A stretch of DNA of 64,000 bases from Ceratodon purpureus (taxonomy: Eukaryota; Streptophyta; Bryopsida; Pseudoditrichales; Ditrichaceae): assembly GCA_014871385.1 (NCBI GenBank), contig CM026428.1, positions 11,236,815-11,300,814 of the forward strand, in the 5' to 3' direction. The position numbers and the translations under genes are program-made. Of the stretch, positions 16,912-49,593 are shown piece by piece. The notes under the pieces are model-generated. The model did no database searches. It saw only the letters and a list, made by a program, of their open reading frames with translations, and was not told where the DNA came from. Each line of letters starts with the position of its first letter. The stretch's first letter is position 1.

Positions 16912-17421
16912 TTACTCGCACGAACAGTACTCCACGCTCTCCGCCACATCACAGACGCAGTGGTCTCCGCTGTGTCCTCCATCCTCGACGCTTCCACTCT
17001 CCGCGCCTCCTTGAACAGTGGTGGTCACCCCATCGGATGCATCGGACATAGATAGTCCGACATCAAGGCTTCGGCGATCAGACCCAATGTCCGAGCTACT
17101 GTAGTTCGTTGCAGAAAGGTCGGAGGTGTCATCGGAAGATTCATCAAGGTTGATTGGATTTGCTGCGCAAAAACCTCGAGTCTCCCCTGGTACGTCCAAG
17201 TGCCGCAGAAATTCGTCATATGTGTATCCGGCTACACGTCCAAGATACACCACCTCCTGGTAGCATTTCTCTGTGAATGGAAACGCGTTAGAAATTCGAA
17301 CAAGGTTGGCAAGGTGAGGGACATTTGGGAGCCAACGCTTCTTCGCCCATCTGTCCTTCGCGTTCCGATTGAAGAAAACGACGGACATCCATGCCAGTAG
17401 ACACCCTTTCTCAATGTCCAT
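16912..17421 (-). CDS. Transposon-associated hypothetical protein, W-L-P family, member 2
   Basis: This is a 169-residue ORF from the ATG at 17421. The frame stays open 180 bases further upstream, but that part shows no conservation with the paralogue. Residues ~30-105 are homologous to the 15158-15832 product: conserved W-L-P, P-H-L, T-E-K-C, Y-D-E-F-L and C-A-A-N-P-I-N-L-D-E. The C-terminal half is Ser/Asp/Glu-rich and ends Y-C-S-C-E. Two neighbouring paralogues on one strand imply a local duplication. Function is unknown. Confidence 0.5.
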   Translation of the reverse strand: MDIEKGCLLAWMSVVFFNRNAKDRWAKKRWLPNVPHLANLVRISNAFPFTEKCYQEVVYLGRVAGYTYDEFLRHLDVPGETRGFCAANPINLDESSDDTSDLSATNYSSSDIGSDRRSLDVGLSMSDASDGVTTTVQGGAESGSVEDGGHSGDHCVCDVAESVEYCSCE

Positions 17422-28770: not shown

Positions 28771-29477
28771 TCCCCTGTCAGATACCGTGCGCTGTGTTAA
28801 TACGAGGTGATAGGAGTAGAGTTCTCGGAAGGGAAGCCGGAGTTGCACCGTATACATCAAAACAATTCAGACTAATCAGCAACAAGAGCAAGAGTAACAC
28901 CATCCTTAAAAAGAATGGAACATCAGAACAGCGACATACCTTTGCAATGTAGCACCAACAATCCCCCAAATCGGTCTTTGTAAAACTCTCCAATTATTCA
29001 CCAACAGCGTGCCTTAGAGTACAAATTCAGAATAAAAAAGGACGACAATCAATCCAAACGATGTTTACAATCAAACTGTGCTAACAAGGAGTCTCTATGA
29101 AAAAGACCACGGAAAAGGAAGTGAAAAATAATAAAGTATGACGAAAAAGTGAAGACGACAAGGTGAAAAGGAAGAAGACGCAGAGAGAGGCACAGTGTCG
29201 TCTCATATGCATGCGTTCAAGGCACAGTGCCCAACATCAACAACGTAGAAGAAGAGAGTATATGATTGTAAGTCCCCAGGTAGCGATAGTGTAATAAATA
29301 TAGGGGGAGGGCGCTCACTCACTTAGTAATGATGTGGGTGACGAGTTGATTCATTTGGAACTGCCAGGACGTGACTCGTTCGGGAGAACTGATTGATGTA
29401 GGGTTTAAGAAGCAAAGTCTCTGTCAGTCGCAATTGGAGCTTGCCCTCCTTAGAGCCTATCGTTAAGTGCATCCATC
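28771..29477. promoter_or_regulatory. Probable bidirectional promoter region of the outer element
   Basis: The CACTA transposase reads left from 28770 and the disrupted Pro-rich gene reads right from 29478. These ~700 bases are the only DNA available for both promoters. They may include a 5' exon or leader intron of the transposase: a TCTGACAG acceptor-like site lies near 28,777. No defined TATA box is claimed. Confidence 0.4.
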
Positions 29478-29501
29478 ATGTCTGACTCAGACCAGGACCG
29501 A
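29478..29501 (+). pseudogene. First eight codons of an outer-element gene, cut off by MULE insertion
   Basis: The ATG at 29478 opens M-S-D-S-D-Q-D-R. The MULE begins immediately after. The frame resumes exactly at 47788 with G-D-S-S-R-S-S on the other side of the insertion, the last three codons (Q-D-R) being duplicated as the 9-bp target site. This fragment is the displaced start of the gene described at 47779-49593. Confidence 0.75.
29493..29501. repeat. Target-site duplication, left copy
   Basis: CAGGACCGA abuts the left MULE terminus and is repeated exactly at 47779-47787 beyond the right terminus. Nine bases is the usual target duplication length of Mutator-like elements. Perfect identity suggests a recent insertion. 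Confidence 0.85.
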
Positions 29502-29708
29502 GGGACGTAGCTTGTACGTGAGCGGAGAGCGTAGAGCGGAGAGCGGTGAGCGCAGATTTGGAGAGCGGAGAGCACAGAGTGGGTGACAGAACCTAAAAAT
29601 AGCACTTTTTTACTAAAAATAAAATATAAAATTAGAAGATTCGAATATTCTCAGTATATTTTTGGAAAAATACTAATTTTAGTAATTTTATTGACCCTAT
29701 AACCGTGG
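29502..29708. repeat. Left terminal inverted repeat of the MULE
   Basis: It contains the GC-rich block of GAGAGCGGAGAGC-type short repeats (29520-29580) and the inner block GACCCTATAACCGTGG (29693-29708). Both recur inverted at the right end in the mirror order. The left arm is about 90 bases longer than the right because of an AT-rich internal stretch. Confidence 0.75.
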
Positions 29709-30017
29709 AATAATTACAGTGTTTTCATTGAATTTGTAGTTCGTTTTCTTTTTTTTTTGATGATTAATTTTTTAACGTGCACCAATTACTATGCTCCAGC
29801 TCCTTCTAACTAGTTTAGGCATACATTAATTCCCTTTATCTCCTCAAATTTATATGCAAATTACCGCATAAAATGTATTGGTATTAAAGCTCTTAAGAGG
29901 GATAAAGTAACATTTAATATCGTAACAATTTCTTAACATTGTTAGAAATCATCCGCCATGGTCTACATGGTTTATTTCTTTTATTCTTCATATTAACTTC
30001 CATTACTCTATCTATCT

Positions 30018-30394
30018 TTCCTTTCCTTTAATTCTCTTTCATTTTCTTTTCTCTTTCATTTTATTCTCTCTTTCATTTTATTTTTTCTTTCATTTTATTT
30101 TCTAGTTCCTTTTATTTTCTCTTTCATTTTATTCTCTCTTTCATTTTATTGTCTCATTCATTTTATTTTCTCATTCATTTTATTATCTCATTCATTTTAT
30201 TTTCCTTTTCATTTTATTTTCTCTTTCATTTTATTTTGTCTTTCATTTGATTCTCTCTTTCATTTTATTGTCTCATTCATTTTATTTTCTCATTCATTTT
30301 ATTTTCTCATTCATTTTATTTTCTCATTCATTTTATTTTCTCTTTCATTTTATTTTGTCTTTCATTTTATTTTCTCTTTCATTTTCTTAGTCGC
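30018..30394. repeat. Pyrimidine-rich minisatellite (TTTCATTTTATTTTCTC-like)
   Basis: About twenty imperfect copies of a ~16-17 bp T/C-rich unit lie just inside the left MULE terminus. The strand is almost purine-free. It could act as a non-B-DNA or nucleosome-excluding segment. A T-rich tail continues to ~30,500. Confidence 0.8.
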
Positions 30395-30691
30395 CTTCAT
30401 ATTATTTTCAATCTTAATATTTATTTTTGCTTTTTTTCCTTTTTGCTTTTATTATTTTTTTTTTTAATTTTTTTTATTATTTTTTAATTTTAAAAGCTAA
30501 ATGACTTCTGCTCAACCCTCATCCTTTTTCATTCAGTTGAGGAAGATGCAACTTCCAAATGAATGAATATCCGATTTTCAAGGGCGCCAAGCATCTCCTT
30601 CACGGATATTTAAGTTAGGATTATGGAATGTCTCTTCCTCTTTTCTGTTGGTGTTTTGTGAAGCTGTTTTCTGTAGTGCGGGACAGCAGTT

Positions 30692-31144
30692 ATGGAAGAC
30701 GTCAGAGATATTGTTGTTTCACTTGCTGACGATGTTTGTCCATTTCAACCATATGTTGAGGTGGAGGACGAAGAAGAGGTGATGGCCAGCAGCCAAGGGC
30801 GTCCTTTAACAACGGATGTTGACGTGCAACCGGATGTTAGAGCTGACCCTCCACGTTCAGAAAATTCGGATGATATCAGAGTGCTGGAGGAGGACGCAGA
30901 TGTGCCTTTGCAACCTCATGCATACTCCAAGGTTGGAAAGATCCCAAGGGGAACCTATTCCAGGGAATCAGTGAATCGGAGGCGGGGAGGTGGGCCATTG
31001 CTGAAACGATCATACCAAGGACACGCTCCAAGTGTGGGAACGAAAGTGAATGCGAATGTAGTTTGTCCTGTAGTACAGTCAGAGGTTCGCAATCCTGCTG
31101 ATAGTGTAGTGGGCAACCCTAAACGTGTTAGGTTCGAAGATTAG
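30692..31144 (+). CDS. MULE-encoded hypothetical protein, left TIR-proximal
   Basis: This is a 150-residue ORF from the ATG at 30692. The N-terminal half is acidic (V-E-V-E-D-E-E-E-V, V-L-E-E-D-A-D-V). The C-terminal half is basic, with S-V-N-R-R-R-G-G-G and the ending P-K-R-V-R-F-E-D, which resembles a nuclear localisation signal. No domain is recognised. It is transcribed inward from the left terminus, convergent with the transposase. The MULE terminal repeat may supply its promoter. Confidence 0.5.
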   Translation: MEDVRDIVVSLADDVCPFQPYVEVEDEEEVMASSQGRPLTTDVDVQPDVRADPPRSENSDDIRVLEEDADVPLQPHAYSKVGKIPRGTYSRESVNRRRGGGPLLKRSYQGHAPSVGTKVNANVVCPVVQSEVRNPADSVVGNPKRVRFED

Positions 31145-31398
31145 GACATCTAATAACAAGTATATGTTTGCTGTAATAAAGGGTACATGTCAGAGGATAC
31201 GAGGTATATAGTGCACTTCTTTAAGATAGAATGTATTGAAATAGAATGCAATCAATGTGAACGACAAAGCCTTTAATATAATGAAAAAGTCAATACAGCT
31301 TCTGAATAGCTGACTTAGTACATGGTATATTACTAAAATCATTCACTACGTGACAAATGGCCATTGTGGAAATGGCAGTTCTAAAGTAGGAGGGCTAC

Positions 31399-34300
31399 CT
31401 ACTTCTTCGCCAAGGGGTGACGCAAGATTCCACTCTCTAGGAGAAGCTTGACCTCGTTGAAGCTAAAGGTAGGCGCATGGATGAAAAGCTCGGCTTCGGG
31501 ATCACGGTTGCAGACCTTCAAGAGTATGTAGTAAAGGTGCTTACAATACGTGAACTGAGTCCTGCCTTTGAACGTAGTCATCGTCTTCTTGAATGCTGGG
31601 CAAGTGCAACCAGGGTAAGAACTGATGGTAATCTGGTAACGTGTGATGTGAGGAGCGACGCCCGAATCCAGCCCAATGATGCAACCGTGGCCCGGCTCAG
31701 GTATCATGGTGACGGAACGGAGGCGCGCTTTGAGAGACTCGGAGGAGCCCATGGATAGTCGCTGCGCCGGATTGGGACGAGTGGCAGTGCGCTTCACCAT
31801 CTTGCCGTCTCTCTTGCCTGGGTAGCGGTCAGCGTCTGCAGGGACTGGCACAGAGTTGAGATTCGCAGGGGGCGGGGCAGAGGAGAAGAGGCGTCTTGGG
31901 GAGACCGGCTTTTTAGGCGGAAGTTGAAAGCCTGCTGCTTCGAGGGCAAGAATCTCAGTCAGTTTTAGATTAGTACCTAGTTTCACTGGCCAGACCTCTG
32001 GAATGGAGGGGAATTCCTGGTCCTTTGAGTAGTGCGCTACCCACTTCCGCTTAGAGCCTTTCACGCAGCGCTCAATATCGTCGGAGCAGAAGAAGAACTC
32101 TGTCTTCTCAACAGTGTTCCTGCGATAGTTAGTCCAGAGCCCAGTGTAGGTCGGTGCAGCTGTGCAATGGGGCCCCCTCACGATTCTCTCAGTGCACTTC
32201 TTCTTCGTTTCAGCTCTCTGGGCCCAGCAGCACTTTGCAGAAAGTTTGTGAAGTCTCGAGATGTGCCACTCCTTCACGTCCACCTTGGTTTCTTCAACCG
32301 CGTTGACATGGCGAATGCCGCTCTTGTTCAGAGGTGAAGGTACAGGGGAATCAGCATTCTGGGTAGGAGGTTGGGTACATTGTACCTCGGTGTCGTGTTC
32401 GGAGTCGTCTTCCACAATGACTGGCATCTGCATAGGGCGAGCCCTGACGGCACGTCTTGGGCCTCTTGGGCGTGAGAAGTTTGTCTTGTCCGGGCGATGA
32501 GACTCCTCGTCAGCTCCGATGGGGACGTCGGCTTTTCGCTTCTGTGAACCGAAGACTTCCGCTCCAGGCATGATAGGCTGACGGGTGCAGAACTCATCCG
32601 CGCCTGGCATATCGAGCATGGGCTTATCAAGCAGTGTAGGATTTCCCCATTTCTTCGCGTTGCGTTCAGCCATCCGGAGTCTGAGTTCCTTTTTGGACGG
32701 TCCTGTTCCGCCGACGTCACCTTTGAGGAATTGGTAGTAGTTAACAACTTGAAGAAAAGCCCGAACGAAATCGTCCACGGTAGCAACGTAGAGGTCGTTC
32801 CCGTTGTTTCCAGAAGCCTGGAGCCACTTGTTGTGAACTGTTTCGGCGAGGTTACAGGTGGGCATCTCTGTGAGTTCTTCTTCCGTGAATTTCTGCAATT
32901 TTGACAGTAGGTGCCATTAGATTCACGGATTAGAGTTTTGTAGGTTAGTGCTAGGAAACCAATATGAAAAACATCAAAACAGAGTTCAGAGATAATACCT
33001 CGGTCATGAATCCCCCCCATTGGCGGAAGCGGTGGTGCCAGAATGACAGCCACTGATCGAGTTTGATGAGCCCGCTTTCGCCAACGACCCCGGTGGATGC
33101 CCACCATGCTCGCAACGCGTGGTACAGAGTTTCCGCCTCTGCCATGCTGGTCGCATTCTTGTACTGAGTGCACATCTTCTTGTGCTGTTCCCAGAGTTCT
33201 TCGGGGAAGTGCTTCTGCGTATACGCCACCATGTTCTGAGTCCAGTGGAACAAGCACGACCTCTCCCGGTCCTCCATTGGGTCCTCTTTGTTGCCATTGC
33301 CGTAAAGGATTCGCACTGCATTCCAATTCGCCTGTGCGTTATCCGCCATGAACCCCTTGAAGTTCGGCGCTGCAACGCCATTGATCTCCATGACCAGGTT
33401 CAGGTTTTTCCAGAAGACGAGCTGGGCGTCCGTGTCCTCGGACTGCATGTCGCAAGTGGCGATTGTCATCACGCGGCAGTAGGTGGCGTCGTACACATGG
33501 CACGCCATGGTCGACCAGTCTTTGACGCGTTTTACATGGTCGAACATGATCCATGCGTTCTCCAAGTCGCCACCAGCTTGCATTCGGCTGACCAAGTCGA
33601 CACCACTTCCCGGCCCAACCTCCGACATCTTGAAGAGGAAGACTTTGTCACGCATCGATCCCTGACCAGGAAACCTATTTTCCTGGACATACGCCCAGAG
33701 ACTGTTACCACGGAGCTTGGTGATACCGTCCATGATTCCGTACCTTTTGAATCTTTTGAAGGTGGCGACTTTGTTGCGGATGTTCGGCGATGCCATATCT
33801 TTGCATCGATCCAGAACAGGAACCAGCTCCTCCATCGTCAGCTTCCTCGGTGGTGCATCCTCGGGCTGTAGAAGGTAGCTGCCGATGAGGAGTTTGCTCG
33901 CCTCCAGGACAACGGCGCTCTTTGTTGCTTTGTTGTTCATCTCTACCTGCTCTTCTATTAAGCTACTAATCTCTGCTTTAGAGTCTCTGTAGTCTCCTAC
34001 TTTCACTGGATGATCATGTGTTCCTATGTGAATACAAGCTCTAGTCTGATTCGGTTTGCCCACAACGTAATAAATCTTAGCCTCGCATGTAGCTACACAT
34101 GATGGAGGTTCTTTACATACCTTGCACACTAGCGTGGAGTCAGATGGAGGAGGCTGGTCCATGACAAAAGCTTGCAGGGTACAGCCTTCGAACTCAGTCT
34201 CGTTGACCTCGAAGATCTTGGGAACACGCTTCAGGAAGTCACAATCCTCGTTCGTGCAACGCAGCCATCCGACGCAGGTGGAACTTCGAAAAGAGAGTCC

Positions 34301-35080
34301 GAAGTCGTTTTTGATGTTTGTTGTGATGGTCTTGGTCCACAAGTGTCCGTCGTATCGTTTGTCCATTCCCTGCATAGACTTGGCGGCGAGCTTAGAGGAA
34401 CCTGCAGCAGCTGGGGGCAACTCAAAAAGAACCGGACCATCAAACTTCGCAGGCAAGTACTCTACTCTCTCGTGTCTAATAGTGGAATAGTCTATCTTCT
34501 TCAAAATGTTTTTGGACCCACGCGTCTTAGCAATCTCTTTAAGGAGCGGAACAATGCTAACTGTGACCTGGGACAATGGAGGAGAGACATTGGAAGGAGG
34601 AGCATCTGCATGGATCTTAGGCACCAACTTCACGGGACTGACTTCGTCATCAGAAGAGAGAGAAATGACTGTCGGAGGAGGAGGTTTTTCTACATCTGAA
34701 GTCTCAGTACCAGGCTCGACTTTGACCTTGACATCACGAGGTAAGGGAGTCTGAATTGTGCAAGTAGAAGAGCGACGGGGGGTTAGTATCTCAGTGGATG
34801 CAGCCATCAGAGAATCAGTAAGACCGTAGACTCTATAGGATCCAGGGAGGAGTCGCCACTGCAACATATTATTCTCATCTCTCATTGAAGGTTGCCCGAG
34901 GGTGTGGGTAACCTCGGCAGTAACGTCATCAAAGATCTCCTCCTCTATACTGATGGAATCCTCACGAAAATGGAATCTGAGACTGAGGCGAAGAGAGGAG
35001 ACTGTAGCAAGACCATCGTCATCTACACGAAACCTAAGAGGGATGCCCATGCCTTGGGCGTACAGGCAGACCATTCCCAT
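31399..35080 (-). CDS. Mutator-like (MULE) transposase with zinc-finger N-terminus and SWIM domain
   Basis: Two exons (35080-32999 and 32892-31399, GT-AG, phase 0) give 1,191 residues. I used the ATG at 35080; the frame is open further upstream only through a TTG. The N-terminal half has a Cys/His cluster (C-V-G-W-L-R-C, C-K-V-C-K, ending H-I-G-T-H-D-H) like WRKY/GCM-type fingers. The DDE core shows an Asp in Y-D-A-T, an Asp in F-M-A-D-N-A-Q (~residue 577), the C-L-F-H-W motif and a Glu in N-L-A-E-T-V-H just after the intron. A SWIM finger (C-T-C ... C-K-H) lies at ~1122-1146. It catalyses cut-and-paste transposition of the surrounding element. I see no lesion. Confidence 0.85.
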
Positions 35081-35702
35081 GTTTGCAGACGCAGAGACTA
35101 GAAGAGTGTGTGAACTAGCGAAGCGATAACGAGAGAGCAAAGTGAGAGGAATGATTCATTGCTGTTGATCATTTTATTCAGGTTGGAATGCCCATGTTAA
35201 CAGCTGGAGAATGATTCATTCTGTTAGGTAACGAATGTACGATTTAAGAGAGACGGCGCTAACTAATTACAATGCCACTTTTTGCAGGTCTAAGTATATG
35301 AGGTCAGAATTTTAGAACTATACTTTATTAATTTGAATCGTGAAGAGGATTCTATTTGTTATGATGTATTATAATAGTAGAATGAGCCGTCTTTTATATT
35401 CTACATTTAAGACAATGAATAAAAAAAGGAGCATGCATTGAAGTGCTTGATTCAAATCTTTTAATTTTTAGTGTGCTTGGATTTTTTCTTGGTAATTAAA
35501 GGATGATATTTTAAATTGTACTTTAATTATAGAGTTGTTAATGGTACTCTTAATATAAAGACTGTAGAAAATGTTTAAGTGGTTAATATTTTATATGTAT
35601 TTAGGGTTGTATTAAATTAGTTGTGCGATATAGGTATTTAAGCAGGTAGGAAGTTCTCCAGAGAGCCTTTTTTTTGAGTGAGTCATTCTTTTGGTTAGAC
35701 AC
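35081..35702. promoter_or_regulatory. Probable divergent promoter region of the MULE
   Basis: It lies between the transposase start (reading left) and the CTD-like gene start (reading right). AT-rich, with two copies of GAATGATTCATT (35150-35161 and 35209-35220), which could be transcription-factor sites. The sequence shows this much only. Confidence 0.4.
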
Positions 35703-38700
35703 ATGAAGCAGAGTGGAGGTCCATCTCCCTCTACTTATGTCACTCCTAAACCTAGAAGAAAACCAGGTCGAACAGATTTTACGGATAGAAGAGCGAGGAA
35801 GAGGAGAGAGTCACGTAAGAAGGTATGTTTGAAAGTTGACCATTTGAATGCACCCGTTAAAGGGAGAGGAGCAGGACTGCCTGTAGCTTTGAAGTTCTCT
35901 AGCATTCGCAAAGTTATTCTAGACTCAATAGAGGAGGAGAAGGAACAGTTCTTTGAGAGCAACGTAATCGGTAATCACGAGCAGGAAATGGAGGTACTTG
36001 GAAGTAGAGATGCACGTGAGGCCATGACGGAAGAATTAGTCTTTAATTGTAGTCAAAGAGTAGAGTCTCCGCAACCTTCTATTTCATTCAATGAATTTTC
36101 GACAGGGGAGCCGGATTCTCAATCAGATCTATATGTCGACTCCGAGCAGGTAAGCTTTTCTACACCGACTTGACTGCACTTCATTCGTTCAATTAATTAA
36201 GTGTTCTAAAGAGTAGAAGCAATACTAATTACAAAATGTATATTAATTTTGGGAATGTACCGAATGATCTGCCTTATCTCACGTAAATGCCGCGGAACTA
36301 AAATGGTTGAAAATTTCGTATAAATATTTGTAGAATAACCAGAGGATAAGGGTGTTGGGAAAGTCGAGTAGAGGTTCAGTGGGTGCCGAGCTCGACCATC
36401 TGCTGAAAATTGCGAGGAGGGCGAGGAGTGACATTCTGGGAGCAGGAGACGGAGGCGAGGCTATGGCTGCGAGGGAGGAGGAAGTGAGGGACATGCCGGT
36501 ACAGGTGGACGGAGAGGAGGCCGCAAGGCAGGAGGAGGTCGGAGAAGAGATGGCGGCGGAGGAGGTCGGAGAAGAGATGGAGCAGCTCGAGCTTCCTATG
36601 GACTCGAATGAGGAGCAGGAGAGGACAGACGGGGACAACGGGGAGGAAGACCGCGAGGAGGAGGTACGGAGCTTGTGACAGAACTTTATGTAGATCTTGA
36701 GTTATGAGTTGAGGCTGTACGGATCTTGGGTTACGAGTTGAGGCTGTACGGATCTCGTTGTACGGGTCGTTTGGGTTTGACTTGGAGTCAGTCCATGTTG
36801 ATAGAATGCGTAATCAAGTGTTGGGTGATTATGGATTGGGGGTTTGCTTGTCTGGGTTTCTAAGGGTTTGCTTGGATTTCTCATGGCTTGCGAAGTTTAG
36901 TTGGTTGGGGGTTGGAGGTTGAGAGAGTGGGGGAAGAAGTGAGGAGTGAGATGAAGTGAGGAAGAGCTGATCCGCATGCACTGATGAAGAGGCATGTTGG
37001 ATTAAATTGAGTTTTCGGTATTCGGGATTGCGTGCGGATTGGATGGGTGTTGGTGTGCTTGCCTGCCCTCATGCATTTCGGCTTCTGTGCAATGGAGAGC
37101 TGCTTGCCGCCGCGTAGAGAGCATGTTTGCTTGCTCTTGGATTTCTTGGAGCTTTTTGTTTGGGATTTAAAAGTGTTCCGGTCGTACTACAGTTGCTCAA
37201 CATTGGGAATGGACTTGTGCCGATTCTGTGACGAGTTGTGTGAATGGAATGCTTCGGTATTCACTTAACATGAATTAAATGTGAAGCTGCTTGAGAGCTT
37301 TCGGTTTTTTATTTGTTTTTTTTTTAATTTTCCAAATTTTAAAAACCGGCCCGCCTACTGTCGTGAACGACAGTAGGCCGCGACCTTGGTGTCATGTTTG
37401 GGGATTTTGATATTGCTTCTTTTTTTTTTTTAATTTTGTGAGGAGTTGTGTGAATGGAATGCTTCGGTATTCACTTAACATGAATTAAATGTGAAGCTGC
37501 TTGAGAGCTTTGGAGTTTTTATTTGTTTTTTTTTTAATTTTCCAAATTTTAAAAATCGGCCCGCCTACTGTCGTGCACGACAGTAGGCCGCGACCTTGGT
37601 GTCATGTTTGGGGATTTTGATATTGCTTCTTTTTTTTTTTTAATTTTGTGACGAGTTGTGTGAATGGAATGCTTCGGTATTCACTTAACATGAATTAAAT
37701 GTGAAGCTGCTTGAGAGCTTTCGGATTTTTATTTGTTTTTTTTTTAATTTTCCAAATTTTAAAAATCGGCCCGCCTACTGTCGTGAACGACAGTAGGCCG
37801 CGACCTTGGTGTCATGTTTGGGGATTTTGATATTGCTTCTTTTTTTTTTTTAATTTTGTGAGGAGTTGTGTGAATGGAATGCTTCGGTATTCACTTAACA
37901 TGAATTAAATGTGAAGCTGCTTGAGAGCTTTGGAGTTATTATTTGTTTTTTTTTAATTTTCCAAATTTTAAACACGGGCCCGCCTACTGTCGTGAACGAC
38001 AGTAGGCCGCGACCTTGGTGTCATGTTTGGGGATTTTGATATTGCTTCTTTTTTTTTTTTAATTTTGTGAGGAGTTGTGTGAATGGAATGCTTCGGTATT
38101 CACTTAACATGAATTAAATGTGAAGCTGCTTGAGAGCTTTGGAGTTATTATTTGTTTTTTTTTAATTTTCCAAATTTTAAACACGGGCCCGCCTACTGTC
38201 GTGAACGACAGTAGGCCGCGACCTTGGTGTCATGTTTGGGGATTTTGATATTGCTTCTTTTTTTTTTTTAATTTTGTGAGGAGTTGTGTGAATGGAATGC
38301 TTCGGTATTCACTTAACATGAATTAAATGTGAAGCTGCTTGAGAGCTTTGGAGTTTTTATTTGTTTTTTTTTTAATTTTCCAAATTTTAAACACCGGCCC
38401 GCCTACTGTCGTCAACGACAGTAGGCCGCGACCTTGGTGTCATGTTTGGGGATTTTGATATTGCTTCTTTTTTTTTTTTAATTTTGTGAGGAGTTGTGTG
38501 AATGGAATGCTTCGGTATTCACTTAACATGAATTAAATGTGAAGCTGCTTGAGAGCTTTGGAGTTATTATTTGTTTTTTTTTAATTTTCCAAATTTTAAA
38601 CACGGGCCCGCCTACTGTCGTGAACGACAGTAGGCCGCGACCTTGGTGTCATGTTTGGGGATTTTGATATTGCTTCTTTTTTTTTTTTAATTTTGTGAGG

Positions 38701-41700
38701 AGTTGTGTGAATGGAATGCTTCGGTATTCACTTAACATGAATTAAATGTGAAGCTGCTTGAGAGCTTTGGAGTTTTTATTTGTTTTTTTTTTAATTTTCC
38801 AAATTTTAAACACCGGCCCGCCTACTGTCGTCAACGACAGTAGGCCGCGACCTTGGTGTCATGTTTGGGGATTTTGATATTGCTTCTTTTTTTTTTTTAA
38901 TTTTGTGAGGAGTTGTGTGAATGGAATGCTTCGGTATTCACTTAACATGAATTAAATGTGAAGCTGCTTGAGAGCTTTGGAGTTATTATTTGTTTTTTTT
39001 TAATTTTCCAAATTTTAAACACGGGCCCGCCTACTGTCGTGAACGACAGTAGGCCGCGACCTTGGTGTCATGTTTGGGGATTTTGATATTGCTTCTTTTT
39101 TTTTTTTAATTTTGTGAGGAGTTGTGTGAATGGAATGCTTCGGTATTCACTTAACATGAATTAAATGTGAAGCTGCTTGAGAGCTTTGGAGTTTTTATTT
39201 GTTTTTTTTTTAATTTTCCAAATTTTAAACACCGGCCCGCCTACTGTCGTCAACGACAGTAGGCCGGGAGGGTATGGACGGATTTGGGGATTTTATCGAT
39301 TTATTTTTTATTCTCTTTATTCTTTGATTTTTGGTGTTATAAGAATTGCATTTTGCTCCCAAAATCTGAATATTCTTTACATTTTATTCAATTTTCAATG
39401 GTTTTATTATAATTTTTAATAGGAATGTCAAGCTTTTGAAGTTTTTTACATATTTGAATGATAATTTCAGTTTTTTAAATTTTTTGAAAAATTCTAGACC
39501 TACTGTCGTCAACGACAGTAGGCCGAGGGAGGGGCATGGAGTTTGGGGATTTTTGAATTGTTTTTTTTTTAAATTTTTTTGGAGTTCTTTTGTGTAATAA
39601 AATAGCATGAAAGCTTAGAGAAAATTAATAGGAAATAAAAGCTTTTCAAGTTGTATACTTAGTTGAATGTTATTATTTTTTTTTTAAAATATTTTGAAAT
39701 TCCCCAGACCTACTGTCGTCAACGACAGTAGGCCGAGGGAGGGGCATGGAGTTTGGGGATTTCTGAAGTGTTTTTGTTTTTAATTTTGTTGGAGTTATTT
39801 TGTGTGATAAAATAGCACGAAAGCTCAGAAAAAATTAAAAGGAAATGGAAGTTGTATACTTATTTAAATGATATTATTTTATTTTTAAATTTTTTTGAAA
39901 AACCCCAGACCTACTGTCGTCAACGACAGTAGGCCGAGGGAGGGGCATGGACTTTTGGGATTTTTGAAGTGTTTTGTTTTTTAATTTTTTTGGAGTTCTT
40001 TTGTGTAATAAAATAGCATGAAAGCTTAGAGAAAATTAATAGGAAATTAAAGCTTTTCAATTTGTATACTTCGTTGAATGTTATTATTTTTTTTTAAAAT
40101 ATTTTGAAAAACCCCAGACCTACTGTCGTCAACGACAGTAGGCCGAGGGAGGGGCATGGAGTTTGGGGATTTCTGATGTGTTTTTGTTTTTAATTTTGTT
40201 GGAGTTATTTTGTGTGAGAAGCTGCTTGAGAGCTTTCGGATTTTTATTTGTTTTTTTTTTAATTTTCCAAATTTTAAACACGGGCCCGCCTACTGTCGTG
40301 AACGACAGTAGGCCGCGACCTTGGTGTCATGTTTGGGGATTTTGATATTGCTTCTTTTTTTTTTTTAATTTTGTGAGGAGTTGTGTGAATGGAATGCTTC
40401 GGTATTCACTTAACATGAATTAAATGTGAAGCTGCTTGAGAGCTTTCGGATTTTTATTTGTTTTTTTTTTAATTTTCCAAATTTTAAACACGGGCCCGCC
40501 TACTGTCGTGAACGACAGTAGGCCGCGACCTTGGTGTCATGTTTGGGGATTTTGATATTGCTTCTTTTTTTTTTTTAATTTTGTGAGGAGTTGTGTGAAT
40601 GGAATGCTTCGGTATTCACTTAACATGAATTAAATGTGAAGCTGCTTGAGAGCTTTGGAGTTTTTATTTGTTTTTTTTTTAATTTTCCAAATTTTAAACA
40701 CGGGCCCGCCTACTGTCGTGAACGACAGTAGGCCGCGACCTTGGTGTCATGTTTGGGGATTTTGATATTGCTTCTTTTTTTTTTTTAATTTTGTGAGGAG
40801 TTGTGTGAATGGAATGCTTCGGTATTCACTTAACATGAATTAAATGTGAAGCTGCTTGAGAGCTTTCGGATTTTTATTTGTTTTTTTTTTAATTTTCCAA
40901 ATTTTAAAAATCGGCCCGCCTACTGTCGTGCACGACAGTAGGCCGCGACCTTGGTGTCATGTTTGGGGATTTTGATATTGCTTCTTTTTTTTTTTTAATT
41001 TTGTGAGGAGTTGTGTGAATGGAATGCTTCGGTATTCACTTAACATGAATTAAATGTGAAGCTGCTTGAGAGCTTTGGAGTTTTTATTTGTTTTTTTTTA
41101 ATTTTCCAAATTTTAAACACGGGCCCGCCTACTGTCGTGAACGACAGTAGGCCGCGACCTTGGTGTCATGTTTGGGGATTTTGATATTGCTTCTTTTTTT
41201 TGAGTTCCTTTTTGTGTAAAGTCAATGCATGGTTGATAAAATAGTTTTAATTGAATGGTAAAAGTCTTGATGAGTGTTGATGAGTTCTTAAGGTTTTTTT
41301 GGGAGCTTCTCGAGGTTGTGGTTTGTTTCATTATAGTTGCTGTTTTTTCTAATAATTAAAAAATTGTTTATGATTAAGGACTCTGATGGAGATCATCTGG
41401 GTAGCGAGCGTCAAGACCCGACTCCAGCAGAAACTGAGGTATTTCATTCAATTTTCAATTTATATTGTTTTCTTATGTGTTTGATTTTGAGTTCTATTCG
41501 CCTCAAACACATGTTCGTTTCCTTCATTTTAAAAAATTGAAGTTAATCCTCACTTCATTTCTGCTACTCTAGGTATCATCCGATGCTCCTGAGATGTCTG
41601 CTACTTCCCCCATTTCTGTGATCAATGTTTCCGATCTTTCGGATTCATTTGATCAGCCTTATTGTACCTGTGATGTAGCCAACCCTGTAGGTGTGGAAAG

Positions 41701-42025
41701 TGGACCTCTCGAGGTCCACTCTCCTCAATACATGCCTACCTCGCCAGTGTACATGCCTACCTCTCCAGTGTACATGCCTACATCCCCGGTGTATGAGCCA
41801 ACCTCCCCGGGCTATATGCCCACGTCTCCTGCACAGGGCTCCCCGCCGATGTCTCCACCCTCTCCTTCGTCGCCGATTAGAGTCAGGAGGCCAGCCCATG
41901 TGGTCTTTGCTCTGCCGGCTATTTTGCCGTGCCCTGTCCAACAGACCAGGCGATTTTGGAGGAGGCGCCGTCACTGGAACTGTAGACAGTCTAAGGAGTA
42001 CTATAGTCGATCCTCACGTAGATAG
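35703..42025 (+). CDS. Acidic MULE protein ending in RNA polymerase II CTD-like heptads
   Basis: My exon model is 35703-36149, 36343-36663, 41379-41438 and 41573-42025. All junctions are GT-AG and phase 0, giving about 426 residues. Exon 1 is Lys/Arg-rich ([16 protein letters not shown]). Exon 2 is very acidic (repeated V-G-E-E-M). Exon 4 encodes five tandem heptads at 41729-41833: YMPTSPV three times, then YEPTSPG and YMPTSPA. These match the Pol II CTD consensus YSPTSPS at five of seven positions and keep the Ser5-Pro6 pair. An Arg-rich tail follows. The 4.7-kb intron 2 contains the satellite array. The 3' end may instead splice into the next gene; no strong in-phase donor was found. Confidence 0.55.
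36692..36750. repeat. Two-copy tandem repeat, 29 bp
   Basis: Two adjacent copies of GATCTTGGGTTACGAGTTGA followed by GGCTGTACG, with few differences, lie at the start of the long intron just before the satellite region. Confidence 0.7.
37231..41195. repeat. 209-210 bp satellite array with 19 copies of an invariant palindrome
   Basis: Units repeat every 209-210 bases, with only four irregular steps (259, 201, 170 and a 209 after the 201). Each carries arms CCTACTGTCGT and ACGACAGTAGG separated by two bases. Palindrome starts: 37354, 37564, 37774, 37983, 38192, 38402, 38611, 38821, 39030, 39240, 39499, 39709, 39910, 40119, 40289, 40499, 40709, 40919, 41128. The centre is GA (10), CA (7) or GC (2); the arms do not vary. 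Units at 39.3-40.2 kb have largely different flanks but keep the palindrome. Long T-tracts and AATTTT blocks flank each site. The array lies inside the long intron of the CTD-like gene. Confidence 0.95.
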
Positions 42026-42170
42026 TTTTATCAATCACAGATGATGATTGAGTTGTTAAAAGAGAGGTTACAGTATGAAGATATATTGTTACTTTCTTTT
42101 ACATAATTGTCTACTTTGCATGACCTTCTTCGATTGTGCTTGTTTTCCTAATTTGCGCACCTTCTCGCAG

Positions 42171-45100
42171 GTTACGCAAACACAAGATCTGTTGGTGAAA
42201 CCATCTTGTCCGTTAAACTTGAAGACTGCCACAGAAGGGGAATTGGAACATCAAACCAAATACAAGGTGAACACCAACGCCGTCATCAACAAGCTCAGGA
42301 TCAAGCCATCGCAGAAGTCCCGAATGTCGGTGCCCCTGTGCAGGATGATTCCAATGGCAAAGGTCAGACCAGTGGGCGAAGTGGGTGTGCAGCATTTGGA
42401 GCGGGAGTTCGTCAAGGGGTATAGAGATGGCGACCGCGTCATGTACATCTCCATGTACAACAACGAAGAGCAGACACGAGATGTTACGGATGAGGTCATG
42501 GCTAAATGGAGCCCATTATGGAGGGACGCGAATGATGCCTTTGAATTTGAGCTTCAAAGTGACGAGGACTGGTCGCATTTCTCGGGGAAGATGTTTTTTG
42601 TCTGGGAAGGTAACCATCGCCTCTCAGCATGGCTTCGGCATATCAACAAGCATCATGCAGAGGACCCGTCATGGCACATATCAGTGAACTGCATAGTACT
42701 CGATCCCCGTGGCCATGTTGGCAATCTTCTTCACGCAATGCATGACATCAACTGGTAAGTACTTGTTTCTTTTCTCCTGTTTTTCATTTGTTACTTAATC
42801 TCATCTCTTTTATTCATCATACGTATTTTGGTTTCTTTTCAGGTCGACTGAGAATGACCACGTGAAGAGTAATCTCCCTGCAAAACTATTTCGAATCCGC
42901 TCTTTTGGAATGATGAAGCTTGAGGAATTCAAAGACCTCCTAAGTCCTGAAGAGTATGACGCATGTTTGAAGAACAAGCCACCTAATCCCTCCTGGTTTC
43001 CCTTGACAACTAAAGTTTTCATCGCATTTCTCTACCGAGTAAGTCCTACCTCCTCTCTCTATTTGCTTTTTATTCTTCAATACTCATGGAATTTCCTAAG
43101 CCTGAATTATCTATCTACAGCGGGAACTTGCTGCGGCCTCCGATGAAGCAGCAAATGCCTACCGCATGAAGACACCCGTGGAAGAGCAGTCTGCAAGTGC
43201 AGTTTGGGACGTCATGAATGAGGCATCAGAGAGAATGGTCGAAGCCATCAAGAAGAAGGACTTCACCAAGTACTTGGCCATTGCAAATCCCAAGAATGGT
43301 GACGACTTCCTCAATGAGGTGACTCACTGATCATTGTTCAATTCACAATTTCGTACGACTTCATTAATTTTTGTATTTATCTTTTTCAAACTTCCTTGCT
43401 TCTTGCAGATTAATCGCCATTTCAGTCTCAACAATAAGCCTGAGATGTCAGTCGATAAGCTTCAGAAGGTTGTTCCTGCGGCCGTTGAGCCCAAATACAA
43501 GGCTCGTTGGTTGAAGTGGTGGAACTCATCCCCGACTGCTCGAACATCTTACAGATTTCTGCCATCTGAATTCAAAGACACCGAATTCGACCCATGGTTG
43601 AACAAAGCTTCATTCTGGGCTGGGGTAATTTTCATTAAAAATTTCTTTCGATTTCCTTGTTCCTTTATTTTTTTACTGTATTCCTTCTTCGCTGCTACTT
43701 ATATGAATTCTGTATTACAGTTGGAGGAAGCCGTCATCCACGAAGTCGAGGACATATTCAAGTCTGAGAACCTCGATATCAATTGGATGGCATTTCCTGA
43801 TGTCCAACAGCCGGGCGATTTTGTGGAAAGTTCACGTATTCTCTTGTGGGAGAAGGCCTTCCCTACGTTCATAGGAAAAAAAGCTGTGAAGCACTTCGAC
43901 AAGAAGTCCAACTTCGCTAAATTCCCTGGAACCGCTCAAGTTGTCAAGCGGGTTATTTACCGGTACATTACCAAACTTAATCGCATTTCCATTTCATAGT
44001 TCTCATTGTAATTATTTCTTATACTTACCTCCTTTGTGTCTTCCCATAGGTACTTCAAGCGAGAGCTTCTTTTGAAGGGGGCCATCAGCGTTCAGCAACT
44101 CCCCATGTACTTCAAGCTTTGGACGCAGACAACCTCGGACCAGTGTATCTATTCTCCCCAGCAGATAAAAAGGTACAAAGCTGCTCACCTAGACGCTGGA
44201 TGCTGGTATCTTGATTGTATTGGTGGTTTCACCATTGACTCCGAGGCGGAAGTCAAGATGCTGCACGATGGAGGTGCAGTTGTCGTGGAGGACTCCGTGG
44301 ATGATGCAGAACGTCCTGAAGGAGAGCAGGATCAGTCTTCTGCTCCTCCACCGAAGAGAGGGAGAGGAAGGCGACTAAAATCTCTGGGTTCTCGGTCAGA
44401 GGCATCACAGCAAACTGGTGCGGAGTCTTCCGCGCCAAGTGAGAAGGCACCAGAGCCCTCTCCGGGTATTGTCGTTACGAACCCTTCTCCAGCTTCTTCA
44501 CCGGCTCCTTCCTCGATCAGTGCTTCGGAGATCACCAGAGGTCTCCTTCAGCAGAGGAAGGCCAAACTATATCCTCAAACAACTTCTTCCGCTGGAGCTT
44601 CGATTTCCACACATGTCTCAGTCTTCAACTCATCTGTGGATTCCATGTTACGGCGAAATAGGAGACAGGAGAGAAAAGGTGGCGACCCGGATTGGATCAA
44701 GACTCAAGACTTCATTCGCAAGGTTTGTTCCTATATTTTGACATTTCCTGGATTCTGCCACCTTTACTCGCTAAGCAGTTACTAACTCTGCTTTCTTGTT
44801 TCCTCAAGTTTGGAGCAGGCCGCGAAAACATAGTTGGGGACCGTTGCAAACAAGAGGACCATCTGGGAGTCGACTTGATCATTGCCGACATCCCTGAGAA
44901 TCTTCCCGTCCCATCCGTTTCCGTTCCCCCCACGAGTATTCCGCCTTGGAACTCTCGCTACAAGGATTATTTGTACGACATCTTCCATTTTGCAGATGAT
45001 TTCCTGCAGAAAGATGGTGCCATCTGCCTCATCTACAACACTGATCAGAAGCTGGCTGAGGATATCGAGGTAGAAGCTGCTGGTGGTGGATACGTGCTGT

Positions 45101-46124
45101 TCAAGGACTGGTGGGGTGTCAATGTACTCGGCCTGACTTCTCCTACGAACCCCGAGAACTTGGTACTTTTCCTGAACATGCCCTTCTCTTTGCTTACTGA
45201 TAACCCTTCCGCTTCATTTTTCTCACTAGTTTTGCTTGACTGCAGACTATGCGGTTCTGGATTCGCGTCTACGTTCGTAGTGGCAGTACTTTCTCCTTCC
45301 AGACGAAGAAGGAAGACCTGATACATGGGCTCCTCAACATTACCGAGAGTGATGCCATTTTCAACTTCACCGATGCCGACTCTCAGCTCATGAATGGGGA
45401 GGTGCCGTGGAGAGGCCCAAGGGAGAAATCCCCTGAGATGATGCAGAGCATCATTGAGGAGCTGTCGAAGCCCGGCGACATAGTCTTTGACTGGAATGCT
45501 GGGACAGGTAACTCTCTTACATATCTCTGCTTCATTTTTCCTCTCGTTTTTTCCAAAGTTTCTCATTTCTTTGTTTCTCTTCGAGTTTCAGGGGCCTCCA
45601 TCAAGGCCGCCCAGGCTGTTGGTCGTCACATTCTCGCTTTTGAGGATGACGAAGCCATATTCAACGCCCTTCTCAAACCATCCGCCATGGGCCCTCCTAA
45701 ACATCCAAGGCCGGCAGCAACAGGCGAAGCGCCTCCAAAGAGAGCAAGACCTGACAAGTGGTGTACGTCTTCTATTCTTCGTTCACATTATCCAAGCATT
45801 TCTTCTCTTTCCAGCTCTACGTACAAGATCTAACCACAATCGGTTCTCTATTCCAGAGTAGTTTCTGCATCACCGCCACGTGTGCCAAGAGCAGTGTCCA
45901 CTCCGTCGTGGCGTCTTCATTCCAGCCCGATTCAGCCTTTCATACTTCCGGACTACGCAGAGGGCTTAGCACAGGCGTTTCAATCTCGAGCCCTTACATA
46001 TGTTCCTAGTCGGCCAACTACTTTTGATCCCAGGGCCCTTCAATTCGTCGATGACGAGGCGGTAGAAGGAGATACGGAGTCATCTAGTTCTGAGAGTGAA
46101 AGTAGCGACTGTAGCATGTTGTGA
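42171..46124 (+). CDS. ParB/Srx-like plus permuted amino-methyltransferase-like protein of the MULE
   Basis: My exon model is 42171-42754, 42843-43038, 43121-43318, 43409-43624, 43721-43962, 44050-44722, 44809-45162, 45246-45507, 45592-~45762 and ~45859-46124. The frame is kept throughout, about 1,000 residues if the ATG at 42324 is the start. V-W-E-G-N-H-R-L-S-A-W (42600-42632) fits the ParB/sulfiredoxin G-x-H-R-x-x-A box. The middle is unrecognised; a Pro/Ser-rich basic linker follows (44.3-44.6 kb). The C-terminal part has D-L-I-I-A-D-I-P (motif IV position) and later K-P-G-D-I-V-F-D-W-N-A-G-T-G (motif I position), the order seen in beta-class N6A/N4C DNA methyltransferases. Motif IV lacks the usual PPY/PPW. 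It ends in an acidic Ser-rich tail. The last junction is uncertain, and fusion to the upstream CTD-like exons is possible. Confidence 0.6.
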
Positions 46125-46638
46125 GGTTGAAGGACGCTTCGGTCTATTGTTGTTTTCATTTGATTTGATTTGATTTAATTGGAGTTCATTGGGTAATCCT
46201 TCGTCTACTCTACTTCACTGAACCTAAACTTGTTATAATTCTCATGTCCAATTTGTCTCCGTGTTTGTAAAGGATGAAATGTCACAACTGTAATGCTCAA
46301 AATATAATATGAAGAATGAAATGTTACAAAAGAAAAGCTCAAATGTAATATTGTGCTGTTATTTATATTTTACTCATTCAAAATCCCACATTTGCATAGC
46401 CATGTTACCTATTCTTGACTTGGTGTACATCTTGGTTTCTGCTACTCCATTATTGTACACGAACTCTGAAATTATCCACGACCTTTTAAGACCATTTCTT
46501 TTAGTTGGTTTCGAGTTCTCTTATTTCTAGAATCATCTATATTATCTTAAACCATCATGCTGGAATACTCGTATCTAGATCCAATGAATGACCAAATCTT
46601 AAGGATTGTATTCGAACACCCCACTAGACTTCACTGTA
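46125..46638. other. MULE spacer between convergent genes
   Basis: No supported gene. It must include the 3' ends of the ParB/methyltransferase-like gene (+) and the 123-aa gene (-). AT-rich. Confidence 0.4.
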
Positions 46639-47010
46639 CTAATCCTTCGAAGGATATACAGTCCAACTCTTGTCCATATCAAACCAGCAAGTTTCGCCAT
46701 CCGATATGATCACTTCGGGCAGCTGAACAACTGGATTCTCATCGACGTTCGATAGCAAGGGATACGGGATTAGGGATAACTCCATAATACGGAGAAGCTC
46801 ATTGGTACAAAGCACTGTCCAACGCCATTCACCTTCACCAACATGGAGGCTTCCGATGTGCCTAAACGGTGGCAGGTCCATGCCTCGTTCCCTGGCGCGC
46901 TCCACCTCCAGCAGCCACGGCCGCAGCTCCTCATAACTCGCCGGTGCCTTTGGGGGCAAACATACAGCCGCTCTCGTCCTCCTGGATCTCGCATTACACA
47001 CCTTCGGCAT
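46639..47010 (-). CDS. 123-aa transposon protein, R-P-W-L-L-E-V-E-R-A-R family (MULE copy)
   Basis: From the ATG at 47010 this ORF gives exactly 123 residues. Its central 75 residues match the ORF at 62864-63235: E-E-L-R-P-W-L-L-E-V-E-R-A-R is identical, then a G-x-x-W-R-W-T-V core, E-L-(L/M)-x-x-M and Y-P-L. It begins with a basic segment (S-R-R-T-R) and ends acidic and aromatic (C-W-F-D-M-D-K-S-W). The family is unknown to me. It sits next to the right MULE terminus and reads inward. It looks intact; equal length and conservation in two elements argue that it is a real gene. Confidence 0.65.
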   Translation of the reverse strand: MPKVCNARSRRTRAAVCLPPKAPASYEELRPWLLEVERARERGMDLPPFRHIGSLHVGEGEWRWTVLCTNELLRIMELSLIPYPLLSNVDENPVVQLPEVIISDGETCWFDMDKSWTVYPSKD

Positions 47011-47660
47011 CGCGCAACACACTGAATTCTCGTAGTCTTCAAACGTTACAGGCAAGCTTGCAGATTGACATCCCCGAACTCCTACGCTACCTTCGCAGAC
47101 AGCACAGCATGCCAAGGACTGTGTCCATTCTAATACGCCACCTAAGAACAAGCTATAGAAACCAAGAGTGACCTCCTTCTCTGGAACCCAGCTTACCAAG
47201 TGCTGTTTGATGATGAAAATCTCCTACTTGTATCACTCAAATGAAGATGCTTTGCTGCCTACGAAGAGAGAGTACTCTTCGATGAAGACAAGGACTCTAA
47301 CAAGGTATATCTTGGTTTCAGCAGTTAAGATATTATACACAAATTTTGAAATATTCCAGGAAGTTTTCAAACCTTGCCTCCTTCATGTTCTGTGAAAGTT
47401 TTTTTTTTCCTTGTGCATTTACATAACCCTATGAAAGAATTATTTGTTTGATCTGAAACTCAACGCCTGATCATTGTATCTTGCCCAAACTCATGACAAA
47501 TGTAAAGGACTGTATGCATGACGTCATCATGACATCAGCCCTAATTTGTATCTAAGAGAACAAACGTAACAAATTCTTACCAGAGATAACCCTGATTTCC
47601 ACGGTAATATACTCTTTTCCTAAAAAAAGTGTCAAAATCAAGCCTTAATTTAGTAATTTT
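47011..47660. other. Right MULE subterminal region
   Basis: No supported gene. AT-rich; it probably holds the promoter of the 123-aa gene. Confidence 0.35.
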
Positions 47661-47778
47661 CCACGGTTATAGGGTCTACTTTGCTTTTGAAAATTTTGCT
47701 AATTGTCAAATCTGTGCTCTCCATTCTGTGCTCTCCGCTCTCCGCTCTACGCTCTCCGCTCACATACGAACTTTCCCC
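47661..47778. repeat. Right terminal inverted repeat of the MULE
   Basis: It starts with CCACGGTTATAGGGTC (47661-47676), the inverse of 29693-29708. It contains the CTCTCCGCTCTACGCTCTCC block and ends CTTTCCCC next to the TSD. It is shorter than the left arm. Confidence 0.75.
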
Positions 47779-47787
47779 CAGGACCGA
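47779..47787. repeat. Target-site duplication, right copy
   Basis: CAGGACCGA is identical to 29493-29501. In the interrupted gene it encodes Q-D-R, in the same frame on both sides. Confidence 0.85.
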
Positions 47788-49593
47788 GGGGACTCGTCCC
47801 GCAGCTCAAGTTCAGATGAAGATGTCCACGAAGAGGAGGAGGAAAACGAGTACCTACGATTGCGGAACGAGAGGGTGGCGGAGTTGCGCGCAAGAATGCT
47901 TCCCCTCGAGGAGGCTGCCAAAAATTTGTAAGTTCCTTCAGTGCTCACCCTAATTGCGAAACATCAGTTCACTCTACTGCCACGTGCCGCTTTAGACGGC
48001 AGAGATTTATCATATTGCAGTCTTTCTCGTTTGCACCGTAGCTAGAGCGCTTCTGAACATGGTAATTAGATAGTATGTGCTAGAACACGGCATTGGGAGT
48101 GTCGCGACTCTGACTTTATAGGGTTTCTGTCCTGCAGACGAGACTCGTATCGCCCCCCAAGGCGCAGCACAATTGGCGAAACAGAGCCGTCGTCTCCCAA
48201 AGGAGATACTGCACCTCGTAGAAGCTCGAGGTTGCTTGGAGCTGGGGGAACGACTCCGTCTGATGCAAGAGTGATACGAAGCATGAGCACGACTAGTGCG
48301 TCGTCGGACCAAGAGCGAACAATACATGATCGCAACTCCGTCCCAGGTACGTTTCGAACATATCTTCTTTCAATTCGGTATTATGGAGCGTACCGTGAAC
48401 TTGCAGGAAAGTCGACAGTTTTGTCTGTTTGTTGCGTTTTCTATGTGGTCAACTGCATGGTCATGTATATGTCGCGATCGAAACCCTAAACTGATGTTGA
48501 TGGCGCTCAGTGTGCAAGTCTGTGTGATGTTGACCATGTGTTTAATTCTACCATGTAACGCAGTTTCTGGAGTAATGAATCGTGCACGGTATGATGCCTG
48601 AATTGGTGATTCATACAATACAAAACTTTGTTTATGTCTTCTAGATGAGGAGAGCCGGTGGTGGAATAGGATAATGGGTTCGGAGTTAGGGTTTAGGTTA
48701 CCGCAGATTCTTGACCGTCTCGGTTATTCTCATTTTTATCAGTAAAGTTTTATTGTTTCCCATATCACTGTAGCAGTGTTTGACATCTCACCATGTTGCA
48801 ATATGTTTATGTGTTCGCAGTTTTCGAAGAGAACCAAAAATCATACGAAGAAGCATCGAGGGGAACGAACTCCGAACTGAATCGCACACACAGAAAGGCG
48901 AAGCAACAGCTTGGACCGTCTCCAGAAGGTGTATCACCGTGGGCGCCAAACTCTGCTTTTGCAACCCCTGGACGCGGGTCCACAGACTCTCCTGCATCTC
49001 AGGCGCCGGCGGCCTCTCAAGGCAGTGATTCCAGTCGTAGGCAGCAACCACTGGCAGGGCAGTGGCAATACACACCACAAGGATGGAGTTGGAACCCGTC
49101 TTGGAGCTACCCACCGACTCAAGTTCCATGGAACCCCCCAGCACCTTCTATGCCACAAGACGCACCGTGGCCAATGCCTCCCCCTCCGCAGGGTCCTCCT
49201 CCATGGATACCTACTCATCCACCCCCTCAATTCCAACATCAGCAACATCTGAACTCGCAGCCGTGGACATCTGCCGCAGGAGTTGGGCGTCCACCAGGAG
49301 GTCCCTCAACTCCCATGGGGGGGACTTCATACGCTGGCTTTGTTCCCATGACACGACCAAACTTCGAATCGCAGTGGCCAAATACACATGAATCCGGTGG
49401 AGTTGCTCCAACACATAGCCAAGTCAACATGGATGGAGCAGGGCATGCAGTTGAGAGAGAAGTGCGACAGGAGGAGACCCGGAAACAGGACTCGATAAAG
49501 CGGGCTTCCAGGAGGTCCTACAGAAAGCAGATTGTGCAACAGGCGAAGGAGGGGGGAAGCACAATAAAGTGGACCACAAAGTGCAAAATGTGA
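47779..49593 (+). pseudogene. Outer-element Pro/Trp-rich protein gene, separated from its start codon by the MULE
   Basis: Exon 1 (rest) ends at 47927, exon 2 is 48138-48346 and exon 3 is 48821-49593. Borders are GT-AG and phases are consistent. Together with 29478-29501 the unbroken gene would encode 381 residues. The N-terminus is acidic (D-E-D-V-H-E-E-E-E-N-E-Y) with a short helical run. The middle is Ser/Arg-rich. The C-terminal half is rich in Pro, Trp and Gln (many P-P-x and W-x-P motifs) and ends basic (K-R-A-S-R-R-S-Y-R-K). It is probably a disordered accessory protein of the outer transposon. No mutations beyond the insertion are evident. Function is unknown. Confidence 0.7.

Follow-up and report, generated by a model that had tools for sequence, protein, structure and literature searches.

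Palindromes in a satellite array of a moss MULE-like transposon and their association with the N-terminal half of the surrounding gene

The window analysed here is a stretch of 64,000 bp from the moss Ceratodon purpureus (contig CM026428.1, positions 11,236,815 to 11,300,814), which contains a DNA transposon resembling Mutator-like elements (MULEs). A satellite array within this transposon, predicted to occupy an intron of the element's second gene, repeats a 24-bp palindrome, and related genes elsewhere in the genome are accompanied by palindromes of other types. The type of palindrome follows the N-terminal half of the gene, for which a 195-residue exon termed exon P serves as marker, and not the methylase-like C-terminal half. 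Our favoured reading, to which we give a probability of about 0.55, is that the palindrome would be bound by the protein product of the gene that hosts the array, and that it would serve self-recognition by the element, most likely for anti-silencing.

Conservation of the palindrome

A scan of the window with the pattern CCTACTGTCGTNNACGACAGTAGG, allowing up to three mismatches, yields 19 palindromes, all of them exact and starting between positions 37354 and 41128; in 100 dinucleotide shuffles of the window none is found (mean 0.00, largest 0). Each copy consists of the arms CCTACTGTCGT and ACGACAGTAGG around two free positions, i.e., 22 fixed bases in 24 bp, and the central dinucleotide is GA in ten sites, CA in seven and GC in two. 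This confirms the nineteen invariant copies with a variable centre that an earlier note on this DNA had described. Its spacing of 209-210 bp holds for 15 of the 18 intervals between sites and fails for the remaining three (259, 201 and 170 bp), which border or lie within a diverged block at 39.3-40.2 kb. The existence of diverged units is confirmed; Tandem Repeats Finder reports them as a separate 201-bp array at 39416-40215. They keep the palindrome as claimed, while for this block the wording “nearly the same spacing” overstates the regularity a little. A nucleosome repeat or 20 helical turns as a rule of spacing was rejected, since array periods in the gene family span 117 to 242 bp (117, 128, 171, 190, 201, 209-219 and 242 bp).

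First-look searches of the genome gave 2758 candidates for the methylase exon, 2782 for the transposase and 1908 for exon P, and the element family is apparently very large. The best 150, 61 and 150 of these were scored, respectively, so that each exon-P list holds the best 150 of about 1900 candidates. Twenty loci of 10 kb upstream of the methylase exon were fetched from the 150 scored matches (all of ranks 2-12 and nine of ranks 13-37). Some start within their own array, and several are near-copies (L016 and L019 of the window, L017 of L018, L024 of L026). The exact palindrome of the window, referred to as class I, is present in 17 of the 20 loci at 4 to 21 copies each. Together with the window, these 18 arrays hold 254 sites, including 240 exact ones, 13 with one mismatch and one with two (up to six were allowed).

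The 254 sites fall into 39 clusters of similar flanks. Compared between clusters, the palindrome averages about 99% identity even where the flanks (±30 bp) share only 20-40% identity; its mean identity amounts to 0.966-1.000 in each flank-identity bin from 0.1 to 0.9, and the lowest single pair reaches 0.864. Within clusters, a comparison limited to those of at least four units, differences are 11-fold rarer inside the palindrome (11/4752, 0.23%) than in the ±30-bp flanks (334/12960, 2.6%), and the p value of 4e-32 should not be taken at face value, as neighbouring units share ancestry. The alignment of units and comparison of substitution rates proposed in the earlier note thus support the selection on the palindrome which it had suggested. 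Sites were located via the palindrome itself, and lost palindromes could therefore stay hidden. A search by flanks only recovered all 254 sites and gave 227 extra predictions without a palindrome, most of which we judge, from those listed and without a count, to be artefacts of the chimeric flank r31_L034 and of array edges. Genome-wide, 1802 sites are exact and 4408 lie within three mismatches; a reversed-pattern control yielded 0.

The pattern extends beyond the 22 fixed bases, with CCCC at positions -7 to -4, GGGG at 27 to 30 and a one-sided TTTGGGGATTTT about 43 bases beyond the palindrome. At the dyad pairs -1 to -7 / 24 to 30, complementarity is no higher than column composition predicts; the pair -8/31 is somewhat more complementary (0.36 versus 0.20 expected). 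Class I palindromes contain 15 substitutions, and for none of them did the dyad partner undergo a matching change. Within class I, these data favour recognition of the sequence rather than pairing. From one palindrome type to another the two arms have changed in parallel, as would suit a dimer and pairing alike.

Palindrome types and the two halves of the gene

Exon P is 94-100% identical to that of the window in all 17 fetched loci with a class I palindrome. The three loci devoid of it carry other arrays: L033 has 128-bp units with 29 copies of ATTCGGCCCCGAAT (exon P 77%), L021 has 117-bp units with 17 copies of ATTCG-N4-CGAAT (exon P 73%), and L022, a chimera, lacks exon P and has its array between transposase-coding stretches. 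Despite their differing palindromes, the three methylase exons of L021 and L033 are 96-98% identical to those of the window. In a tree of the N-terminal halves, from which L022 was excluded, class I is separated from class II (L021 and L033) with support 100/99, whereas the tree of the C-terminal halves places both class II loci together with 12 class I rows in one group of 14 rows (100/99). Class II is represented by just two loci in these trees, and label shuffles reproduce the class split in 28-32 of 500 trials. As a separate observation, the repeats in L022 (L022:4692-5152) are 107 bp long, carry CCTCGGTGCCGAGG and perhaps occupy a transposase intron.

A third palindrome type extends the association. 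The class III pattern matches 1078 genome sites (control 0), and in the sites listed two inner pairs are lost. Counted by hand over the fully listed stretch (C1 as a whole and C2 to 8.55 Mb), a class III palindrome adjoins eight of ten class III exon-P loci and none of 20 class I loci (Fisher 7.7e-6). The class III exon-P loci are 80-84% identical to L033 and missing from the list of matches to the window's exon P. One lone class III site (C1:6066109) has no exon-P match in the exon-P lists, and a very long class III array at C2:1067484-1079012 comprises tens of listed sites across 11.5 kb.

Likewise, the 50 exact class I sites listed on C1, up to 18.45 Mb, form five clusters, each near an exon-P match. 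In four of these, 1.05-1.2 kb separate the nearest listed site from an exon-P match of 93-94%; the fifth starts, among the sites listed, 3 kb from a match of 94%. Counted from the exon-P matches over the part of C1 below 18.45 Mb, four of five class I matches have the exact class I palindrome beside them, as against none of three from other clades, and the fifth class I match has the variant palindrome of locus L036 given below. A methylase half of about 70% identity occurs with a class I palindrome at C1:12157557 and with a class III palindrome at C1:28240172, and exon P matches the palindrome each time. Palindrome type thus follows the N-terminal half.

More distant copies complete the picture. 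Locus L039 (exon P 89%) retains class I with two exact sites and one with a single mismatch, and L038 (85%) shows a single site resembling class I, which departs from it at one position. L037 (84%) carries mostly GCCAYTGTCGGCAACGACAATGGC, the source of the class IV pattern, which gives five exact sites in the genome: four in the L037 array and one beside the exon-P match C4:16545541 (86%). At L023 the exon that separates the array from exon P is aberrant, with 70% identity, seemingly through a local change and not through clean recombination. L040, from a third exon-P clade, has CCCTACTGTC-GTCACA-GACAGTAGGG in a 230-bp piece taken from the predicted place. A core TCG-N4-CGA common to all classes was dropped, as it fits L021, L022, L033 and L037 post hoc and fails prospectively in L040. 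The motif CATTCGGNNNCGAATSC of L021 and L033 has 358 genome matches (control 2), largely in arrays among the matches listed. None is found at C1:14798803, an L033-like (94%) exon-P match, and class II is therefore not one fixed sequence.

Candidate functions of the palindrome

That palindrome type tracks protein type suggests that the element recognizes its own copies through this protein. The N-terminal half (exon P and its neighbours) may read the palindrome, probably as a dimer, and tandem amplification would multiply the binding sites; as element lineages diverge, site and reader would change together. By analogy with VANC in Arabidopsis VANDAL elements, the purpose would most likely be anti-silencing of the element's own copies. 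A possible route is that the methylase-like domain, together with heptads resembling the C-terminal domain (CTD) of RNA polymerase II, is brought to the element. Physical binding, dimerisation and purpose are what we infer here. The earlier note had proposed to look among MULE-encoded proteins for a binding partner; a link to such a protein is supported, with the element's second gene and not the transposase as its source.

Several observations weigh against this reading. The searches recognized no DNA-binding domain: neither in Pfam, NCBIfam and PHROGs nor among PDB sequences and phages does exon P, or the open reading frame (ORF) containing it, have a significant match. At least three units of L028 are likely true losses of the palindrome, and 2606 of the 4408 genome sites within three mismatches (59%) are inexact; class III sites differ from the class I pattern at two positions, and the other inexact sites may be further types or decay. 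Locus L036 (exon P 94%) has the variant CCTACATTCGT..ACGACARTAGG in five units, two of the ten class III loci are wanting an exact class III palindrome, and at L040 the palindrome was found where predicted without the predicted core. Finally, the array is only about 1 kb from exon P, and co-segregation could thus be due to physical linkage.

The closest known parallel is VANC21 of VANDAL21 (Hi) in Arabidopsis, an element-encoded anti-silencing protein which reads a motif, and for which binding and hypomethylation have been demonstrated (PMC5735166, PMC10398659). Motif-bearing repeats occur in introns of that element's own genes, VANC21/VANB21 (PMC5735166). Both elements are of MULE type and repeat a short motif in tandem in non-coding parts, including an intron (here predicted) of an own gene, and in both the motif and the protein vary between related lineages with a far more conserved transposase. 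In contrast to VANC, which has DUF1985/DUF287, the moss protein is unrelated and combines CTD-like heptads, exon P and a methylase-like half. A Pfam scan of 20 ORFs of the window (E<=1) shows neither domain, and PF09331 (DUF1985) has 0 matches in the genome, a count that does not establish absence since the control genomes gave 0 as well. The text of PMC5735166 does not describe the 9-bp VANC motif, YAGTATTAY, as a palindrome (0 occurrences of the word), whereas the moss site is a 24-bp palindrome; and binding and hypomethylation, established for VANC, are predictions in the moss. At most, the element system may work like VANC, as an analogue and not as a demonstrated member of that family.

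If the favoured reading is true, a self-recognition system of a plant MULE would have arisen apart from VANC, in a moss, with a long palindromic site and a different protein, and the coevolution of reader and target in a selfish element would be traceable through four or more palindrome types within a single genome. Naturally occurring recombinants suggest one half of the protein as the determinant of specificity, and each pair of site and protein is open to direct testing.

Among the alternatives, the one with the best prospects, though a tentative one, keeps the same protein and assigns it another purpose: the array might be an intronic autoregulatory element, either enhancer or repressor. 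This would suit its place within the gene's own predicted intron, and the heptads point to an interaction with the transcription apparatus. The 4 to 21 exact sites of each fetched class I array seem excessive for such a role, an argument that is not decisive.

Linkage as the sole cause is unlikely. Array and N-terminal exons would be co-inherited as a block, the last methylase exons being about 4 kb from the array, and the palindrome would be kept for some other reason. Yet this leaves unexplained why the palindrome persists while flanks that are more closely linked change. An element-encoded reader would account for both the conservation and the co-segregation, linkage by itself for the co-segregation only.

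ParB-parS and phage ParB-methylase systems share with the moss element a palindromic site and, in one protein, a GNHR-like motif with a methylase-like half, yet none of the profile libraries searched recognizes exon P as ParB. We regard as improbable a scenario in which the element protein would load on parS-like intron palindromes, coat the element and display CTD-like heptads fused to a dead methylase, whereby copies would stay transcribed by mimicry of elongating polymerase and several separate palindrome-reader pairs would coexist in one genome.

There is a similarly slim chance that the palindrome is the site of a host protein, CENP-B-like or another factor, common to all elements. The CENP-B box is a short conserved protein site in alpha-satellite, and such boxes are conserved in like manner while the satellite's other bases change. 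CENP-B, however, is a host protein with centromeric sites, whereas the palindromes lie within dispersed transposons and are lineage-specific: they differ among element lineages of one genome and track an element-encoded exon, and the exact sites listed on C1 all belong to clusters near exon-P matches.

Recognition or synapsis by the MULE-like transposase has poorer odds still. Transposases of many elements bind internal repeats, but here about 6.5-8 kb lie between the array and each end of the element. Moreover, the transposase match C7:2525871, which by distance belongs to the element of L033, is 97% identical to that of the window, yet the palindrome differs; this is one case.

Selection for a DNA cruciform, as the earlier note had considered, or for an RNA hairpin is the least probable explanation: the parallel, pairing-preserving changes on both arms between class IV and class I and the folding of a 221-nt stretch as RNA, which is better than that of its own shuffles (z -4.9) as expected of a palindrome, would allow it, whereas the dyad data within class I, the two inner pairs lost from the listed class III sites and uncompensated arm changes in all five L036 units seen disfavour it.

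The element, its gene and neighbouring sequences

MULEs are defined by long terminal inverted repeats and a target duplication of 8-11 bp. The element has inverted ends, 90% complementary at 29509-29556 / 47725-47772, and a target duplication of 10 bp (Table 1). The transposase-like gene runs leftward and the multi-exon gene rightward. Neither transposase-like ORF matches a Pfam family convincingly (at E<=1 only DUF6301, E=0.092); DDE-like and SWIM-like motifs may be present. Genomic copies of the first ORF (32951-35140) are 96-100% identical among the best 61 of 2782 candidates.

Table 1. Coordinates of the element, the palindrome array and the exons of the second gene within the window
Feature	Position	Strand	Basis
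MULE-like DNA transposon, 18,276 bp, enclosing array and both genes	29504..47779		inverted ends and 10-bp duplication
Left target-site duplication AGGACCGAGG	29494..29503		identical to 47780-47789
Right target-site duplication AGGACCGAGG	47780..47789		direct reading
Left terminal inverted repeat	29504..29556	+	inverted-repeat search
Right terminal inverted repeat	47725..47779	-	inverted-repeat search
Transposase-like ORFs (32951-35140, 31399-32898)	31399..35140	-	ORF list
Predicted upstream exon A, basic, donor GTAAGC	35694..36149	+	exon comparison across loci
Predicted exon B, acidic, end GAGGAG/GTACGG	36334..36663	+	exon comparison across loci
Predicted intron with array	36664..41377	+	AG before exon at 41378
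Tandem array, three blocks: 210 bp (37223-39266), 201 bp (39416-40215), 210 bp (40218-41201)	37223..41201	+	Tandem Repeats Finder
Palindromes, 19 exact, CCTACTGTCGTNNACGACAGTAGG	37354..41151		pattern scan
Exon C, immediately 3' of array	41378..41437	+	blastn comparison
Exon with five RNA-polymerase-II-CTD-like heptads, including YMPTSPV three times	41573..41998	+	Pfam Rpb1 repeat
Exon P, 195 residues, marker of palindrome class	42171..42755	+	sequence comparison
Two N-terminal-half exons, “mid” and “mid2”	43409..43939	+	sequence comparison
Exon with PPKRGRGRR	44117..44722	+	sequence comparison
Methylase-like C-terminal half, three exons	44809..45758	+	Pfam, PHROG profiles

The array sits in what is predicted to be an intron between exons B and C, because an AG directly precedes exon C in all 18 sequences where blastn found this exon (21 searched, i.e., the window and the 20 loci); L021, L022 and L033 gave no blastn match to it. 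Exon A is present in 12 of the 21 sequences, several loci beginning downstream of it, and has a GT donor in all 12. The donor position of exon B is not conserved among diverged copies.

The heptad exon scores just below the cut-off of the Pfam Rpb1 repeat (E=0.00096, 19.7 bits, cut-off 20.3), and three to five CTD-like heptads (YxPTSPx) occur in 20 of the 21 sequences, with none in L022. Exon P resembles ParB only in the motif EGNHRLSAW; no ParB profile in the libraries searched matches it, and no relatives were found in phages and viral contigs. Its dN/dS relative to the window is 0.14-0.34 in seven of eight comparisons (the eighth yielded no value), and it is under purifying selection. We take PPKRGRGRR to be AT-hook-like.

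The methylase-like half covers part of the domain only (PHROG DNA methyltransferase, E=2.6e-7; Pfam N6_N4_Mtase, E=1e-4, below the gathering cut-off). N6/N4 DNA methylases have a catalytic motif IV of the DPPY type. By inspection, DIPE occupies the presumed motif IV place in 21 of 21 copies, and judged by these enzyme motifs the methylase is therefore probably inactive. The first methylase exon has a very low dS and erratic dN/dS values (0 to 3.5), which suggests that this half was exchanged recently.

The open-licence PMC literature contains no title found to name this element or palindrome, and the window gave 0 matches in an Rfam gathering search and 0 in a tRNA search. Close to the left end of the element, a T-rich 17-bp repeat is present in 22 copies (30032-30409). 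The ORFs 46639-47199 (-), inside the element near its right end, and 62624-63235 (+), about 15 kb beyond it, both carry EELRPWLLEVERAR...WRWTV. A CACTA-type element with Pfam Transposase_21, DUF4218 and DUF4216 occupies 24730-28860 (-) and is separate from the MULE-like element. Further to the left, the adjacent ORFs 15158-15832 (-) and 16912-17601 (-) resemble diverged copies of one protein (WLPxxPHLxxL...ANPI).

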